Shown piece after piece: positions 44,632 to 52,659 of a stretch of DNA of 64,000 nt (position 1 is its first letter; each line of letters opens with the position of its first letter). The notes beneath the pieces are model-generated. The model had not been told where the DNA came from. It searched no databases and worked only from the letters and a program-made list of their open reading frames with translations. Made by a program: the position numbers and the translations under genes. Source of the DNA: Pirellulales bacterium (GTDB lineage Bacteria > Planctomycetota > Planctomycetia > Pirellulales > JALHPA01). The DNA is taken from NCBI GenBank assembly GCA_033762255.1, contig JANRLT010000065.1:1-64000 (forward strand). The letters run 5' to 3'.

Positions 44632-46815
44632 TTAGTCTTTAAATACAAGACGAGCCCAATCGGGATGGTCAATAAACGGATTTCGGTTCTTCTGAATATC
44701 CGCGATCGCCTGGTTACGGTGTAATTCGTGCTCGGTCACCGGCGTTCCTTCATGCCAATCAAGGAGGGTCTCCAAACCTTGTTGCACATCTTCGTACATG
44801 TTCTCGAAATGCCCTCGATAACGCACGAAAAAGTAGAGCGTGGCCCTGGCGACTTTACCTTTTCCCATGAACGGTTCGAACAATCCATCATCCGAGAAGC
44901 CACATTTCGGCCGGTCCGCTTCCTGTGCGATTGAAAACTTCCCGAAGTCGTTGTAAGGACGATTCCCGCGAAAACTATTGCATTGACTCTGACACGTGAA
45001 CAGATGATGCAAGTCCCCTTGCATCGGTGCGTCGTTGCCAAACCAGGATTGCGGGACAACATGTTCGCAGTTAAACGGTTGTTGTGCTTCGAGCATTGCC
45101 GTCATTCGTTCCAGCGCCTCCGGCGAGCGATTCCCCTCCCGCAATGAACGGCGCTCGATAAGCTGCTCCAGGTGTCTCTCAATCCCAAAATCCTCTTTGA
45201 TAAACTGTTTCGGATTGAATCGTTCATCGGAGTAGATACTCCGTACTTTTTTGTCTCGCTGCAGATCGACCCAGGCATACAGGTGTTCAATTCGTGCTAC
45301 TTTGTATGACAATTGCTGCTTGTGCGTCTGGGTTACAAGAGCATTGAGATCGTCGAACAACGAAGTGCTGCGCGGGTCGATGTCACGATAATAATTGGCT
45401 CGGCTCGTTTTGTCACGCTCCTTTTCGTAATACGTACGCGTCTGTGAACGCTCCAAATTCAGGAGGCCTCTTTCTACAAGATTTACCGATTCAGTCCTTG
45501 TATCTCCCGTATCTGTGTTTTTTACACTGGACTTCCGCCAGGTTCTAACTCGGTCGGGAGTATCATGTGAGAAAGTTACCACGACAGGGGTTGAATCTCC
45601 AACGCTCACTGTAACGGTCAAGCTGTGTGCTGTGACACTGCATTTGTTAGTGTAGATAGGTTGCTCAATATCATTGCCAGGTGCGAGATGTTTTTCCGAT
45701 GGCGGCACTTCGTCAACCCTCCTGTCGCCTAGTTGTTCCTCTGAGTATGGTGGGTTGTTGGTTTCACGGGGAAATTCCGCTAATATTGCTGGCCAAGCGT
45801 TGCCATGCTTCTTGGCAACTTGGCGTATGACATCAGCAACAATTCGGCTAATTCGAATCCCTTCATTGCCGATCCATTTAATTAAATTCGGATCATCCGT
45901 GTCAGGATTCCAGATCCGGTTATCGGATGTGAGGATATTGCCTTTAGAATCCTTTAGCGGTACACCAGCATGATGTAGGCAAATGACCTGCCACTGATCA
46001 TTGAACACAGGGGATCCAGAAGATCCAGGCAGCGTATCGGATTCGTAGTGCACATACCGTTCGAGTAGCGCAGTAAATCGGTTCTGTCGCAATGCCAGCC
46101 GCTTGGGCGCACCATTGGGGTGTTGGAGAATATTCAGGCATTCGCCCCGTAATGCATTGGCGACCGATGTCTCCAAACGGAGAAATCCGAAGTCGGATAT
46201 CGCAATCGAGCCGGACACAGATATCGGTTCCACGGCCACCAACGTATAGTCGAGTTCGTCTTCGGGGCTAGAGAAAAAGAGTGCCTGAGGTGCAAGTTTA
46301 AATGGAACCGATGTTTCCATCCCGACACCAATCAAGCGATCCTCGTAGTTAAACTCAGCCATACACAGCATCGCAGTTGCGGGATCCCCAATGACATGAG
46401 AATTGGTGAGTAACAATCGTGGCGTCACTAGAAATCCGGTTCCAATTCTTCGGTAGTTCTCCTGGATGCAACAGACCGATTTGGTTGCTTCGGCCCCCCG
46501 TTCCAGAAAAACGGATGAGAGCAGATCGTTCTCCCCAATAATCCGCTCCAAGCCAGGGTTTTTGGGCCGCGGCAACGTGCGTGCCTCACGAGTGTCAACG
46601 GCCTCTTTGAAACTTCGGGCGAAATTTTCTGCGGTTTCTGTCCCGATCCCTAGATCGGCGACCCTTCTTTCTACCCGGTCGACGCGCTCTATTTCAACCG
46701 GCGACTTGCCAATCTTGATTTGCTCCTTCACAAACTCCCGTTCACCGGCCGAATCACGGAAGCGAGGGCCAACTCCCTTAAGTCTAAGTTGCGATTTGAT
46801 ATCACTTTGTGACAT
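44632..46815 (-). CDS. Trypsin-like protease fused to Endonuclease I domain
   Basis: 727 residues. A helical N-terminal region (1-110) precedes a trypsin fold: LLLTNSHVIG (H140), DELDYTLVAV (D189), LPGSSGSPVF (S266). A linker (about 350-500) includes HSLTVTVSVGDSTPVVV. The C-terminal domain has NCEHVVPQSWFG (H585) followed by MQGDLHHLFTCQSQCNSFRG, the Endonuclease I (EndA/NucM-type) signature. All catalytic motifs of both domains are present. No signal peptide, unlike secreted EndA. Architecture parallels the protein at 37704-39917, with the same protease-linker-nuclease order but an unrelated nuclease, so both are probably protease-controlled effectors of one strategy (inference). No strong ribosome binding site at 46815. 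Confidence 0.9.
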   Translation of the reverse strand: MSQSDIKSQLRLKGVGPRFRDSAGEREFVKEQIKIGKSPVEIERVDRVERRVADLGIGTETAENFARSFKEAVDTREARTLPRPKNPGLERIIGENDLLSSVFLERGAEATKSVCCIQENYRRIGTGFLVTPRLLLTNSHVIGDPATAMLCMAEFNYEDRLIGVGMETSVPFKLAPQALFFSSPEDELDYTLVAVEPISVSGSIAISDFGFLRLETSVANALRGECLNILQHPNGAPKRLALRQNRFTALLERYVHYESDTLPGSSGSPVFNDQWQVICLHHAGVPLKDSKGNILTSDNRIWNPDTDDPNLIKWIGNEGIRISRIVADVIRQVAKKHGNAWPAILAEFPRETNNPPYSEEQLGDRRVDEVPPSEKHLAPGNDIEQPIYTNKCSVTAHSLTVTVSVGDSTPVVVTFSHDTPDRVRTWRKSSVKNTDTGDTRTESVNLVERGLLNLERSQTRTYYEKERDKTSRANYYRDIDPRSTSLFDDLNALVTQTHKQQLSYKVARIEHLYAWVDLQRDKKVRSIYSDERFNPKQFIKEDFGIERHLEQLIERRSLREGNRSPEALERMTAMLEAQQPFNCEHVVPQSWFGNDAPMQGDLHHLFTCQSQCNSFRGNRPYNDFGKFSIAQEADRPKCGFSDDGLFEPFMGKGKVARATLYFFVRYRGHFENMYEDVQQGLETLLDWHEGTPVTEHELHRNQAIADIQKNRNPFIDHPDWARLVFKD

Positions 46816-47354: not shown

Positions 47355-48551
47355 ATGCACGGGAGTCCATCCGATCGAATTGTACTTCGTAGTAAGCTCT
47401 CGTTTCGTCGAACTAGGACCGCTGGTCCACTTGGTGCTGGACCATTCGGATTAGAAAGCTTGCCCACATTGGTTGAGCCTATTCTCGAACAAGCTCATTT
47501 AACGGCTGCAGAGGCAGCCGATTTGCAGCGCGATCCAGAAGTCGTGGTGGTGGCCGATCCCATGCCTCTAAAATTGATCGAGCCTGTAGGAACTCCCGAA
47601 CCAACTCCTACGGCAGTCGGCAATACATGGGGAGTTGAAGCGGTTAAAGCTCACACCAGCCCATTTACTGGAGCAGGAGTTGTCGTTGCCGTTTTGGATA
47701 CGGGGATTAACTCTAGCCATGTCGCCTTTCAAGGGGTTCAATTAGTCCGTCGCAATTTTACTCAAGGAAGTAATGACGATGAAGTAGGTCACGGTACGCA
47801 TTGTGCCGGAACAATCTTTGGCAGGGATGTTAACGGACTACGCATTGGTGTGGCGCGGGGTGTCACCAAGGCATTAATCGGAAAAGTCCTGGGGCCTGGT
47901 GGTGGTTCATCTGCCACTTTGGCAACTGCGATCAATTGGGCTTATGAAAATGGCGCCAATGTCATTTCTATGTCGCTGGGCATCGACTTTCCTGGCTTCG
48001 TTGCTGAATTGATTGACCAAGGCTTACCAGTTGAAGCAGTGACGTCAATCGCACTTGAACAATATCGGGCCAATGTGAATTTATTCTCAAGCTTAACCCA
48101 GTTGTTGGCACAATCCAATGCCTTCTCACAAGCAGCAATTATCATTGCAGCCTCAGGTAATGAAAGCAATCGACCTACGTACGAAGTCGCTGTAGCACCG
48201 CCAGCAGCGGGTGATGGTATGATCTCCGTCGGAGCATTACAGCGTTCTGCTGCCGGTAACCTAAGCATTGCCGCTTTTTCAAACACACAATGCAATTTAT
48301 GTGGACCGGGCGTAAGTGTGACGTCTGCTTGGATCGGCAGCAATAGCATATTGCAGACACTCCAAGGCACGAGTATGGCCACTCCACACGTAGCTGGATG
48401 TGCAGCTTTGTGGGCCCAACAACAGTTGCAACTTACGGGTGTTTTAACCAACAAAAACCTTGCAGCCAAAACTCTCGCATCAGCCGTTTTTGTTCCCGGC
48501 GCGTCATTTGATAACATCGGCAACGGCATGGTGCAAGCACCGCAAAATTAA
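47355..48551 (+). CDS. Cytoplasmic S8 subtilase
   Basis: A 398-residue subtilisin-like protease. Triad: VVAVLDTGIN (D115), VGHGTHCAG (H146), QGTSMATPHVAG (S340). The oxyanion Asn region AASGNES is present. No signal peptide or export propeptide is evident: the first 90 residues are basic and Pro-containing. It likely acts in the cytoplasm or is exported unconventionally. An insertion of about 60 residues (VAELIDQGLPVEAVTSIALE and following) separates helices in the core. Cytoplasmic subtilases occur in bacterial conflict systems with STAND proteins and nucleases (family knowledge), and it is divergent to the trypsin-Endonuclease I gene, which supports a shared role. Confidence 0.9.
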   Translation: MHGSPSDRIVLRSKLSFRRTRTAGPLGAGPFGLESLPTLVEPILEQAHLTAAEAADLQRDPEVVVVADPMPLKLIEPVGTPEPTPTAVGNTWGVEAVKAHTSPFTGAGVVVAVLDTGINSSHVAFQGVQLVRRNFTQGSNDDEVGHGTHCAGTIFGRDVNGLRIGVARGVTKALIGKVLGPGGGSSATLATAINWAYENGANVISMSLGIDFPGFVAELIDQGLPVEAVTSIALEQYRANVNLFSSLTQLLAQSNAFSQAAIIIAASGNESNRPTYEVAVAPPAAGDGMISVGALQRSAAGNLSIAAFSNTQCNLCGPGVSVTSAWIGSNSILQTLQGTSMATPHVAGCAALWAQQQLQLTGVLTNKNLAAKTLASAVFVPGASFDNIGNGMVQAPQN

Positions 48552-49350: not shown

Positions 49351-49962
49351 ATGAACCAGACATTAGTTTTCTTCGATCTTGAAACGGGCGGAATCGACCC
49401 GAAACGTCATCCGATCATCCAAATAGCGGCCATCGCCGTCGGAGAGGATCTAGAACCGATCGAGGCGTTTGAGGCCAAAATCAGATTTTCTTCCAAAACT
49501 GCAACAGCCAGTAGCTTGCGCAAGAGCAGCTATCATCCGGGTGTCTGGGCCAAAGAAGGCCGCGAACCCGCAGAGGTCGCCAAGGAATTGGCCGGGTTTC
49601 TGCGTCGCCATGCAACGCGGCCAGCACTCACCGCTGACGGCAAGAAATATCAGGTCGCGCAGCTCGTCGCCCATAACGCCGCCTTCGACGGTCCGTTTAT
49701 ATCGGAGTGGTTCGACCGTTTGCGGGTATATCTTCCTGCGCGAAAACTCGTCCTTTGCACGCTGCAACTTGCCCTGTGGAATGCCCAATCGCAAGGTGGA
49801 ACAGAACCTGCCAACTTCCAGCTTGCTACCCTTTGCCGGCACTACGGCGTCCCATTTCACGCCGCCTCCGCCCACGACGCCCTCGGGGATGTTTCCGCCA
49901 CGGTGGGTTTGTTCCAAGCCATTGCACGGTCGATGCAGACTTCCTCAAGAGCAGCGGCGTAG
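49351..49962 (+). CDS. DnaQ-like 3'-5' exonuclease
   Basis: 203 residues of the DEDD exonuclease fold. Motif I is VFFDLETGG (D9, E11), motif II LVAHNAAFDGPF and motif III HDALGDVSATV, with the His of DEDDh type. It resembles proofreading subunits and related plasmid-borne exonucleases. The ATG at 49351 has no strong ribosome binding site. The gene is followed by 50031-50327 in the same direction and marks the left edge of backbone genes. The role may be in plasmid replication fidelity or DNA processing. Confidence 0.88.
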   Translation: MNQTLVFFDLETGGIDPKRHPIIQIAAIAVGEDLEPIEAFEAKIRFSSKTATASSLRKSSYHPGVWAKEGREPAEVAKELAGFLRRHATRPALTADGKKYQVAQLVAHNAAFDGPFISEWFDRLRVYLPARKLVLCTLQLALWNAQSQGGTEPANFQLATLCRHYGVPFHAASAHDALGDVSATVGLFQAIARSMQTSSRAAA

Positions 49963-50030
49963 CCCGAATAATTTGAGTAGCAAGCGTCCCTGTGAGAATA
50001 TTAGCTGTAGTTTTTTTGATAAGGAGACCT

Positions 50031-50327
50031 ATGACCGAACGAATTGATTCCAAAAAGAAAAAATCACAAACGGCCGAGACGCCCGTTCACGCGCTCCACG
50101 CCGGGAGCGTGGCGGCGCTCATTTGGCGACGACAATCGCCCGCCGGATACGTATATTTCGACTATTCGCTGACCCGCTCGTGGCAGAGCCTTTCCAGCGG
50201 CAGTCGTGGCCAGTCGCGAAACTTTTTCGCTCAGAATGAACGCGAACTGTTGACGGTCGTCCAACAGGCGTCCAACTGGATCGCCGAGAATGAGCGCAGC
50301 TTGGCTTCAGCCGCCAATCCCGAATGA
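50031..50327 (+). CDS. Small conserved-looking plasmid protein, unknown
   Basis: 98 residues; the ATG at 50031 is preceded by AAGGAG, so the longer frame from 49992 is not used. A Lys-rich start is followed by ALIWRRQSPAGYVYFDYSLT and FFAQNERELLTVVQQASNWI. The Tyr/Trp and Arg pattern suggests a small beta-alpha fold, perhaps nucleic-acid binding. It overlaps the end of the convergent gene 50307-51056 by 21 bases. No family name can be given. Confidence 0.7.
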   Translation: MTERIDSKKKKSQTAETPVHALHAGSVAALIWRRQSPAGYVYFDYSLTRSWQSLSSGSRGQSRNFFAQNERELLTVVQQASNWIAENERSLASAANPE

Positions 50328-51056
50328 GTGATCTTGCGCAGCGCACTTGTCAGCGCTAGCGTCAATAGTTTGCGAATGAAAAGGTGAGCTAGGCCCGAAT
50401 GCCCGGACAATCTGTCGTTTGAAACGCAGGCAGGACACCGGGATTTTCTGATAGCCCGCGGCCTGCCGCTCGGTGTTCACAAGTCGCAATAGCTTCAACA
50501 GTTGCTTCCTGACGGGAGCGTAGGGTTCGTAGGGAAGGCGATAGAACTCTTCCATGAGCGCCTCGACTCGGCGATGTCGCGCCGCGTCGAGGAACCGGGC
50601 GCAGAGTTCCCGGTACGGCTCGCGCGCGATCAGCACCCGAACCCGCCATCGGCCATCCGGCGTCGCGGCATCCGCCTCGGGTGCCTTGCGCAGGAAATTG
50701 CCACGCTTCACGTAGACAGCGTAGTCCCCGATGCGCAGCGGTGCCCTCCGCGCGTCCTTCAGATTCTTCCCTTCTCCCTCTCGGATGGCGTGGTCGCCGT
50801 GAGTCGCCAACAGTACCCAGTGATTCTTGTAGCGAACATACTGGACGTTGCCGAGTCCTTGCTGCTTCCGCCAGCGGCGGGCACCTTCACTCTTGGCAAT
50901 ATCATACTTCGCGAGCAACTTGACGTCGAGAGCGACAGGGTTCTTGCCCTCGGGCAAGGTCCCCTGCACAAAAAAATAATACCCTTTCGGCAGGAGGTGT
51001 GTCGCCACCCGCTGCAAGAATCCCGTGAGGCTTGTGACCTCGTATTTATACTCCAT
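50307..51056 (-). CDS. Protein of unknown function downstream of hairpin-rich region
   Basis: 249 residues with the start at 51056, where AAGGAGG lies upstream; the open frame continues to 51128. Motif-like stretches: GYYFFVQGTLPEGKNPVALD, YVRYKNHWVLLATHGDHAIR, GDYAVYVKRGNF and VRVLIAREPYRELCARFLDA, with a helical, basic C-terminal half. No family assigned; the sequence could be a replication or mobilisation accessory. It is directly downstream, on the same strand, of the predicted large structured RNA (51156-52300). The stop overlaps the convergent 50031-50327 gene. Confidence 0.75.
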   Translation of the reverse strand: MEYKYEVTSLTGFLQRVATHLLPKGYYFFVQGTLPEGKNPVALDVKLLAKYDIAKSEGARRWRKQQGLGNVQYVRYKNHWVLLATHGDHAIREGEGKNLKDARRAPLRIGDYAVYVKRGNFLRKAPEADAATPDGRWRVRVLIAREPYRELCARFLDAARHRRVEALMEEFYRLPYEPYAPVRKQLLKLLRLVNTERQAAGYQKIPVSCLRFKRQIVRAFGPSSPFHSQTIDASADKCAAQDHSFGIGG

Positions 51057-51155
51057 TGAACTGCCCTCCTTGGTGACCGCTAGACCTACCCCAGCGGTCG
51101 CAAAGAAGGGCGAGCTTGTCCATATCACTCGCCCCTGAAACGAAATCCTTCTACA

Positions 51156-52300
51156 CTTGGTCGCGACTCATCTGGAGTTACGACCAAGGCTCCGGGAACC
51201 TCTGCAAAATCCCTTGAACCTTACTTACGAAAGCCTTGCGGTTGCGGCGGCGCGAGCAGCAGGGCTGCTGAATTCTCAGCAGCCCTGCGCTCAATTCCAT
51301 GCCACCGTTGTACCGAAAACCACGCGGGTGTCGTCGCCATGCACTGCGTACACGTCGACTGTCCACCCTCGATTCGCTGCCAAAGGGATTATCTCCTCCC
51401 GGAGACAATTCGTTTGACTCACTATGCTTCCAACCAAGGAAATGCCGCACGCCACCCGACCGGGAATACAAATCCCGGTCAGGTGCGCGGCATTGTCCAT
51501 CCGTTTGGCCCTTAGGCCAGTCACTGCTTTCGTCGTGGCTTACTTGCTTCGGTGCCACCCGAAGCGCCAACGAGTCCGGACTGCCTTGCCCGGCGCTGGC
51601 GAGTCGTATCGTGCGACCGCCCGCGTCTTTGCCTTCGCAAAGACCATCGTCCGAAACGTCCCCAGGCTTCCGCCCGTGTCGCTTCGGCTACCTACTTGCA
51701 GCCCACTCCCCCACTGACGAGTTTCAAGCACGCGGCCGACGAGGCCGCGCACCGGTTACCAACCGGCGTCGTCAGTGGTTCCTGCGTTAGTCAGTTTCTT
51801 CATTTTGAGAGTTCCGTGGGTGAGCTGGTTGCCCAGCATGGCAATCACGTTTCTAGGTGCGGCCGTCAGGCCGTCCTACTTTCCGAGACCGTTTGACCGA
51901 TAAGGTCAGAGGGCTCGATTTCCCCCTACGAATCCAGAAGATCGGGTTACAGAGAAACGGTTGCTTGTCCCCAGTTCGATGCGGCTATCGCCGCCTCGAA
52001 CTGATTTCGGCATCGACCCTCTCAATACTTACCAGCAAGCGATCTCTCGCCTTTTGAATGGTTGAGCTTTTCGCGTTCGCAGACTTCCTGCGATACCCGA
52101 GGATGTCATTCCCCGGCGCGGCCTGTTACCAGGCGCGCGGCTCCCCACGCTGGACAACGTTGGACGCCCCTTAGATAAGGAAGCGAACCCCGTGTGTGGA
52201 TTACGCCATGCAAAAACATGGCCTCACCAACTTTGATAACTGACGGCTTGCGATAGAACTCCATCGCAAGTTGTTCCGCATCGCCCCCATTCGCTGAGAG
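51156..52300 (-). ncRNA. Candidate very large structured RNA
   Basis: About 1.1 kb without credible genes but with a dense series of perfect or nearly perfect helices: 51156-51163/51181-51188, 51259-51288, 51441-51494 (two stacked 8-bp stems), 51625-51644, 51824-51837, 51972-52003, 52039-52050, 52116-52138 and 52247-52270. Two closing stems enclose further hairpins as multibranch junctions: 51711-51720 with 51769-51778 (10 bp; inside are 51731-51749 and 51752-51766) and 51888-51894 with 51955-51961. Read on the minus strand, three loops are GNRA tetraloops: GCAA at 51829-51832, GAGA at 52043-52046 and GTAA at 52126-52129. This sets the likely strand. Ends are uncertain; similar hairpins (52493-52511) may extend it to about 52.5 kb. 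No group II domain V or RNase P core was found. Alternative: single-strand DNA structures of a replication origin. Confidence 0.5.
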
Positions 52301-52575
52301 CTTGAGAAAAAAGAAATTGCTATAGGATAGAAATCCAGGATTACTCTGCGGTCGGTTGGCTGCGAAACAAAGGCAGCGCGTACTGGCAGGATTACTCTGG
52401 ACAGCCTCCTTCGAGCACGGACAAGCACCTGTAAGGCGCATCCGGCTCTACCGGCAAGCGATCATGACGGGCGGTAAACACCGTCCCCTTTTGCATGGCT
52501 GGCGGCCATGCTCCTCGGGCAATCGCTTCCAAACGGATGGAACTTGTCAAAGCGTTTTACGATCATCAACAGTCG

Positions 52576-52600
52576 AAGGGCCTATCCTAAAGCCCTTCTG
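52576..52600. repeat. Solitary IS5-type element end
   Basis: AAGGGCCTATCCTAAAGCCC closely resembles the left end of the element at 2976-3522 (AGGGCCTATCCCAAAAGCCC). No partner end or transposase fragment is found nearby, so it is a decayed remnant or chance. Confidence 0.45.
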
Positions 52601-52659
52601 AGATGCATCTATAACATGGTTTTACCAACGCAATCAACTGGCGCACTCGGTTAGGAACG

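Follow-up and report, generated by a model that had tools for sequence, protein, structure and literature searches.

A predicted CP group II ribozyme paired with an AcpG-like protein on planctomycete plasmid replication backbones

The locus and its structured RNA

The window (the whole 64,000-nt stretch of DNA analysed here) is carried on a 328-kb contig of a planctomycete genome. Among named relatives, those closest to the RNA-acpG locus described below belong to the Pirellulales and include Lacipirellula limnantheis. The gene order in the window is RepA (+), ParA (-), a small gene (-), the RNA (-) and the acpG homologue (-), with the RNA directly 5' of the latter gene (50307-51056) on the same strand (Table 1). 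A RepA-type initiator (PF10134) is encoded within 5 kb of this pair in 17 loci, and ParA-like proteins are found within the same distance in 18 loci. In 11 loci the RepA-type gene runs in the direction of the RNA and stops immediately 5' of it, and another rep-like protein family takes the place of RepA 5' of the RNA in four more. Homologues of a DEDD-type exonuclease (window 49351-49962, +) and of a small protein without assigned function (49992-50327, +) also occur within 5 kb of acpG, each in about 10 loci. The window further encodes a trypsin-like protease domain fused to an Endonuclease I domain (44632-46815, -) and, close to the plasmid backbone, a subtilase-family protease (47355-48551, +).

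Table 1. Features of the RNA-acpG locus, listed from the 5' to the 3' end of the minus strand. Domain II-, III- and IV-like elements are named from their position in the RNA.
Feature	Position	Strand	Basis
Candidate sigma70-type promoter, TTGATT-18-TATAGA	52608..52637	-	similarly placed site in about 10 relatives; weak singly, shuffle p 0.01-0.1
Entire predicted CP group II RNA, about 1.5 kb, ends inferred	51102..52601	-	blastn and nhmmer profile
P1 hairpin, loop GGAUA(G)	52575..52599	-	alignment
P2, branched stem 5' of domain V	52453..52529	-	alifold, region test, loop complementary to D2 loop
Domain V: AGC triad, 5 bp, UU bulge, apical stem-loop	52413..52448	-	R1 136 bits, E 8e-34; covariation
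Domain VI, bulged putative branch-point A 52328, predicted 3' splice site 52322|52321	52322..52410	-	alignment, covariation
35-nt linker, predicted circle; 3' end is putative IBS1 (GAAUGG)	52287..52321	-	unconserved between conserved splice sites
Predicted 5' splice site and start of domain I, |GGGCGAUGCGGAA	52273..52286	-	GGGCGA invariant in alignment A4
Domain I-like scaffold	51783..52272	-	covarying helices
Domain I-like covarying helix	52244-52237/51797-51790	-	alifold, region test
Domain I-like covarying helix	52153-52149/52036-52032	-	alifold, region test
Domain I-like covarying helix	52028-52019/51811-51802	-	alifold, region test
Putative EBS1 loop GGAUUC, partner of IBS1	51930..51935	-	blind complementarity scan
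Domain II-like three-way element with 10-bp stem	51711..51778	-	alifold, region test
Domain III-like element, assigned by position	51523..51702	-	covarying helices
Domain IV-like variable arm(s)	51376..51494	-	51422-51376 covaries; 51494-51441 hairpin in close relatives only
3' terminal hairpin and U-rich tail	51102..51134, hairpin 51134-51108	-	inverted repeat in relatives
Putative acpG homologue, 249 aa, maturase-like palm and thumb, no conserved catalytic Asp	50307..51056	-	profile match, predicted structure

The original prediction had placed a large structured minus-strand RNA in a geneless stretch of the plasmid backbone and linked it to the gene 50307-51056. A coding explanation of this stretch is ruled out by frame-breaking indels, as 76 of the 81 gap runs among the four closest relatives are not multiples of three. 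Full-length matches of the RNA with 77-82% identity were found by blastn in three relatives, while the remaining relatives were reached by an iterated nhmmer profile of the RNA. The RNAalifold consensus fold of 33 homologues contains about 40 helices, most of which are 85-100% paired with many double changes, and region tests confirmed covariation for P2, two domain-I arms, D2, D3 and one 3' arm. The structured RNA and its link to the neighbouring gene are thus borne out by homologues and covariation, with the pair found in 38 of 41 loci (see below).

Two stems had been singled out in advance for compensatory changes. The 10-bp stem at 51711-51778 is 96% paired, with 87 doubly changed cells out of 328, and its region test counted 122 double changes, whereas shuffles never exceeded 40. 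The stem at 51441-51494, by comparison, is visible in close relatives but forms no consensus helix across the family. Likewise, the proposed interval (51156-52511) does contain the RNA, but the RNA is longer and runs from about 52601, next to P1, down to the 3' hairpin. In 28 of 33 relatives the latter is represented by an inverted repeat of 7-11 bp, placed 45-85 nt upstream of acpG, its arms varying yet staying paired. We infer that transcription starts just upstream of P1, where the candidate promoter, statistically weak as it is, predicts a start at about 52601 that abuts P1. Strict promoter and terminator scans at the RNA ends returned nothing above shuffles and also missed this TTGATT-18-TATAGA site.

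Domain architecture and class of the RNA

Circularly permuted (CP) group II ribozymes are defined by the domain order D5-D6-linker-D1-D2-D3-D4 (Roth et al., 2021; PMC8637638). These RNAs of about 900 nt, formerly called T-large, are found on plasmids and chromosomes and back-splice in vitro to give a small circle and a T-shaped branched RNA; they are active in vitro but their role is not known (PMC8637638). The window RNA follows the order P1-P2-D5-D6-linker-D1-D2-D3-D4-like, with predicted reversed splice sites 35 nt apart. Judged by its sequence and predicted fold, it is a plasmid-borne relative of this class, sharing with the published members the D5-D6 block at the 5' end, the reversed splice sites around a linker, the D1-D4-like part placed 3', the P1 and P2 stems 5' of D5, the plasmid location and the AcpG neighbour. 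The differences are the length (about 1.5 kb versus about 900 nt) and the position of acpG, which is nearly always directly 3' on the same strand in the window family and loosely associated in published CP systems. The family also extends the class to Planctomycetota and Cyanobacteriota, whereas the main text of the CP paper names Deinococcus-Thermus, Firmicutes and Proteobacteria (PMC8637638).

The group II domain V architecture can be seen in a relative, locus L034, where the 5' quarter of the RNA contains GAGCCGGAUGCGAUGAGAGUCGCUUGUCCGUGCUC: an AGC triad is followed by five pairs, a two-nucleotide bulge (UN type), an upper stem and a GNRA loop. A 171-base piece of this RNA matches RF00029 (Intron_gpII) with 36.5 bits (E 4e-6; cmscan), just below the Rfam gathering cut-off; the alignment covers the whole D5-D6 model down to its final AU. 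The window's own D5-D6 copy, with its altered D5 loop, is unrecognised by Rfam, and a search of the window's own genome with RF00029 at E 1e-3 gave no match. The apical GNRA is present in most members but absent from the window copy, whose loop reads UUACA, the tetraloop and a few upper-stem pairs being lost. The D5/D6 pairs are formed in 95.1% of the cells of 28 sequences (74.2% when shuffled), with a covariation score of 0.58 versus 0.18 and double changes in 20 of the 28 pairs; none of 500 shuffles reaches the observed values. The D6 branch strand is of the CUA*UCCNAU type, with the bulged A seven nucleotides before an AY-type (A)U 3' boundary, in 33 of 33 aligned relatives, and the D6 stem covaries.

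The predicted linker, 35 nt in the window and mostly 16-60 nt in relatives, has the lowest majority frequency (0.43), while the splice-site block has the highest (0.90). GGGCGA matches the published GUGYG pattern in four of five positions and occurs at the same place in the published RNA of pPNAP05. A blind scan compared the six bases before GGGCGA with complementary segments across the D1-D4 region. It ranked a loop at 51935, or consistently shifted at 51933, first in three registers (permutation z 4.7-5.3), and this candidate EBS1 sits in a hairpin loop within the domain-I-like scaffold. Matched changes are seen in several relatives (GAACGU/ACGUUU, AAUCU/AGAUU, GAGCCU/AGGUUC), and four of the six positions pair in the window itself. 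Upstream of D5, the outer helix of P2 is 90% paired with 80 double changes out of 292 (alifold), and its loop ACCAA is complementary to the D2 loop UUGGU with little covariation. Such a loop-loop pseudoknot between P2 and D2 is a CP-specific feature (Roth et al., 2021; PMC8637638).

A covariance model of our own (R1), built solely from planctomycete RNAs, recovers the published CP RNA of the Polaromonas plasmid pPNAP05 (57 bits, E 8e-13) and scores 72-104 bits on cyanobacterial RNAs (E 6e-25, 9e-17). Since four canonical planctomycete introns score 24-32 bits with R1 (highest 32.0), these matches discriminate, whereas that to the Thermus plasmid (32.3 bits) does not. The RNA had been put forward as possibly new, a match to a known intron class being named as what would count against this. 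Such a match was found, and the claim of novelty is not supported: D5, D6, the splice-site boundaries and EBS1-IBS1 place the RNA in the CP group II class, albeit a rare and unusual one.

The AcpG-like protein

Searches with the protein of gene 50307-51056 in Pfam, NCBIfam, PHROGs and PDB sequences, and a fold search in BFVD, returned nothing significant. AcpG has been reported to be without homology to any other protein class, and it would be surprising if the CP RNA needed no protein help in vivo (PMC8637638). When a profile of 28 homologues of the window protein is compared with one of eight AcpG proteins from Thermus, hhalign finds a collinear match of 170 columns (Prob 92.9/87.5, E 4e-7/4e-6, score 53.0). 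One hundred column-permuted controls reach a score of at most 22.9 and a Prob of at most 2.8, and reversed controls score about 16.5. The profile comparison thus identifies the product as a remote AcpG. Like the window protein, AcpG of Thermus (TTHC007) is the partner of a CP group II RNA, but its C-terminus differs and the pairwise searches used miss the relationship. On the searched 50 kb of pPNAP05, acpG was not found.

AlphaFold models were obtained for the window protein (pLDDT 90) and for a divergent family member found elsewhere in the phylum (pLDDT 95); their alignments overlap in part, so that the two are not fully independent. In both cases the best matches are group II intron reverse transcriptases (RTs), with VIA-align Z 10.1 and 9.4. 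The leading rows have an rmsd of 3.5-4.6 over 176-201 residues, and the rest of both lists consists of Prp8, DGR, DRT, retron and telomerase chains and a viral polymerase. With Foldseek, the top three matches of the second model are group II RTs with a probability of 1.00. The match begins near RT residue 102-125, which indicates that most of the fingers are absent. No conserved Asp is found in the 28 proteins at the position of catalytic motif A or YADD, and the active-RT sequence YVRYADDFVI corresponds to YVRYKNHWVL here (by eye and in a low-confidence profile alignment). AcpG is thus probably a shortened, catalytically dead group II intron maturase, as far as the models allow. It shares the predicted palm and thumb with the maturase/RTs LtrA, GsI-IIC and T.el4h (Z 9-10), which are also partners of group II RNA, but has a core of about 225 residues without conserved catalytic Asp and is not encoded in D4. 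The RT-like domain of spliceosomal Prp8 (Z about 7-8 in both lists) likewise has a catalytically dead RT fold and assists an active site of group II type; Prp8 is eukaryotic and much larger, and we claim resemblance rather than descent.

A different view is that the RNA belongs to the CP group II class while AcpG is not derived from RTs and shares with them the common alpha/beta arrangement of polymerase palms. In its favor, the profile match between the AcpG family and group II RTs (hhalign score 22.7, Prob 1.2), though collinear with motifs A, C and RT7, is at noise level and not significant, so that the AcpG-RT link rests on predicted structure. We nevertheless consider this view unlikely, because RT-family chains fill both VIA-align lists with group II RTs first and the whole core spanned, the best Foldseek matches of the second model are at probability 1.00, and the genomic partner is a group II RNA.

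RNA-protein pairing, proposed reaction and alternatives

Homologues of the AcpG type were found in 22 of 97 related genomes, in seven further genomes from other groups of the phylum and on pK2D_1, a planctomycete plasmid. In the cyanobacteria Leptolyngbya boryana and Calothrix, plasmid-encoded homologues match over the N-terminal half. The RNA-gene pair, with heavy compensatory base changes in the RNA, occurs both in Planctomycetota and on cyanobacterial plasmids. In 38 of 41 independent loci (33 in the alignment and five detected by covariance model), the D5-D6 block lies upstream of the protein gene on the same strand. The three exceptions are L033, where the contig breaks off, L045, with an incomplete RNA, and L049, from which the RNA and part of the protein have gone. 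L045 and L049, with an acpG next to partial or no RNA, are from the same genus. Divergence of the RNA correlates with that of the protein (Mantel r 0.835; null maximum 0.27), as expected of a unit that travels together, with shared descent of the hosts contributing. No viral relatives were found in phages or IMG/VR.

The domain order, branch A, splice sites, EBS1-IBS1 pairing, association with AcpG and predicted RT-like fold together argue for a CP group II ribozyme with its own protein AcpG, the two genes being retained as a module on the backbones for plasmid replication and partition, a reading to which we assign a probability of about 0.87. Against it stand the predicted 5' splice site GGGCG, which departs from GUGYG, the GNRA tetraloop and upper-stem pairs lost from the window's D5, the scant covariation between the P2 and D2 loops, and the non-significant sequence match of AcpG to group II RTs. 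According to this reading, the transcript would adopt a group II active-site fold, aided by AcpG as maturase or folding cofactor. The 2'-OH of A52328 would attack the 5' splice site (52287|52286), and the freed 3'-OH of the linker would then attack the 3' splice site (52322|52321), yielding a 35-nt circle and a T-shaped branched RNA. Since the linker sequence is unconserved, selection probably acts on the reaction or on the branched RNP, and not on the circle's sequence. The P1 loop GGAUAG (52583-52588, -) is fully complementary to the D6 branch strand CUAUCC (52325-52330, -), and both are conserved within the close subfamily. By pairing, they could sequester the branch A in an off-state; covariation between the two was looked for and none was seen.

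The group II character of D5 and D6 could also be that of a decayed or rearranged canonical mobile intron, but this is very improbable. The domain order is reversed, and in the 11 loci where repA ends directly 5' of the RNA there is no space for upstream D1-D4. The Rfam group II D1D4 and D5 models, although they find canonical introns in these genomes, gave no match on the window, and the RNA is conserved over many families, which argues against decay. We thus rejected a canonical mobile group II intron, with D1-D6 order and an RT ORF in D4. A new class of giant ornate RNA of the GOLLD, ROOL or OLE kind is scarcely credible. GOLLD and ROOL had been brought up for their likeness in the original prediction, and all three are large ornate bacterial RNAs like the one described here, with GOLLD and ROOL on mobile elements; size, complexity and location are thus compatible. 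However, the Rfam models of GOLLD, ROOL and OLE did not match the window, no other sequence or structural match to these RNAs was found, and the catalytic landmarks of group II (D5/D6, EBS1-IBS1) are present.

Another alternative is that the CP group II fold no longer splices in the lineage of the window and serves with AcpG as a scaffold or regulatory RNP. The apical loop of the window D5, which departs from GNRA, and the variation of the linker and P1 point in this direction. It is nevertheless improbable, because the branch A, the splice-site boundaries and EBS1-IBS1 are kept in the 33 aligned relatives while the linker drifts, and landmarks kept around a drifting linker are expected only if cleavage matters.

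Returning to the ribozyme-AcpG module, its adjacency to repA and parA makes a role in plasmid replication control or maintenance conceivable, although speculative. Copy-number control, stability and interference with other replicons may be candidate roles of the pair. In pTT8, almost the entire CP RNA can be deleted with autonomous replication kept (Roth et al., 2021; PMC8637638), so an essential role in replication is unlikely there. With moderate confidence, we propose that the module is a stand-alone, apparently non-mobile bacterial group II RNP with AcpG as dedicated dead RT-fold cofactor, both being inherited together as part of plasmid replication backbones in two or more additional phyla. 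If true, it would parallel, in bacteria, the RNA core of the spliceosome with its Prp8, and AcpG would supply the maturase so far missing from CP ribozymes. The pairing with AcpG is near-strict, and this protein, previously without known relatives, gains a testable identity as a dead maturase. The link to repA and parA makes the function testable in cultured planctomycetes such as Lacipirellula limnantheis and strain K2D (pK2D_1).

Several loci deviate from the simple arrangement of one RNA and one gene. Two CP group II RNAs (G020:C116:118013-118181 and G015:C287:4827-4978) have no acpG match nearby. On plasmid5 of Calothrix NIES-4101 (L070), one strand carries two CP D5-D6 blocks, the second (2635-2768) about 2.1 kb 5' of the first. 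Finally, two RNA-acpG modules, L041 (G010:C80:5566-16222) and L042 (G010:C80:20441-31094), lie on one contig about 15 kb apart in the same orientation.
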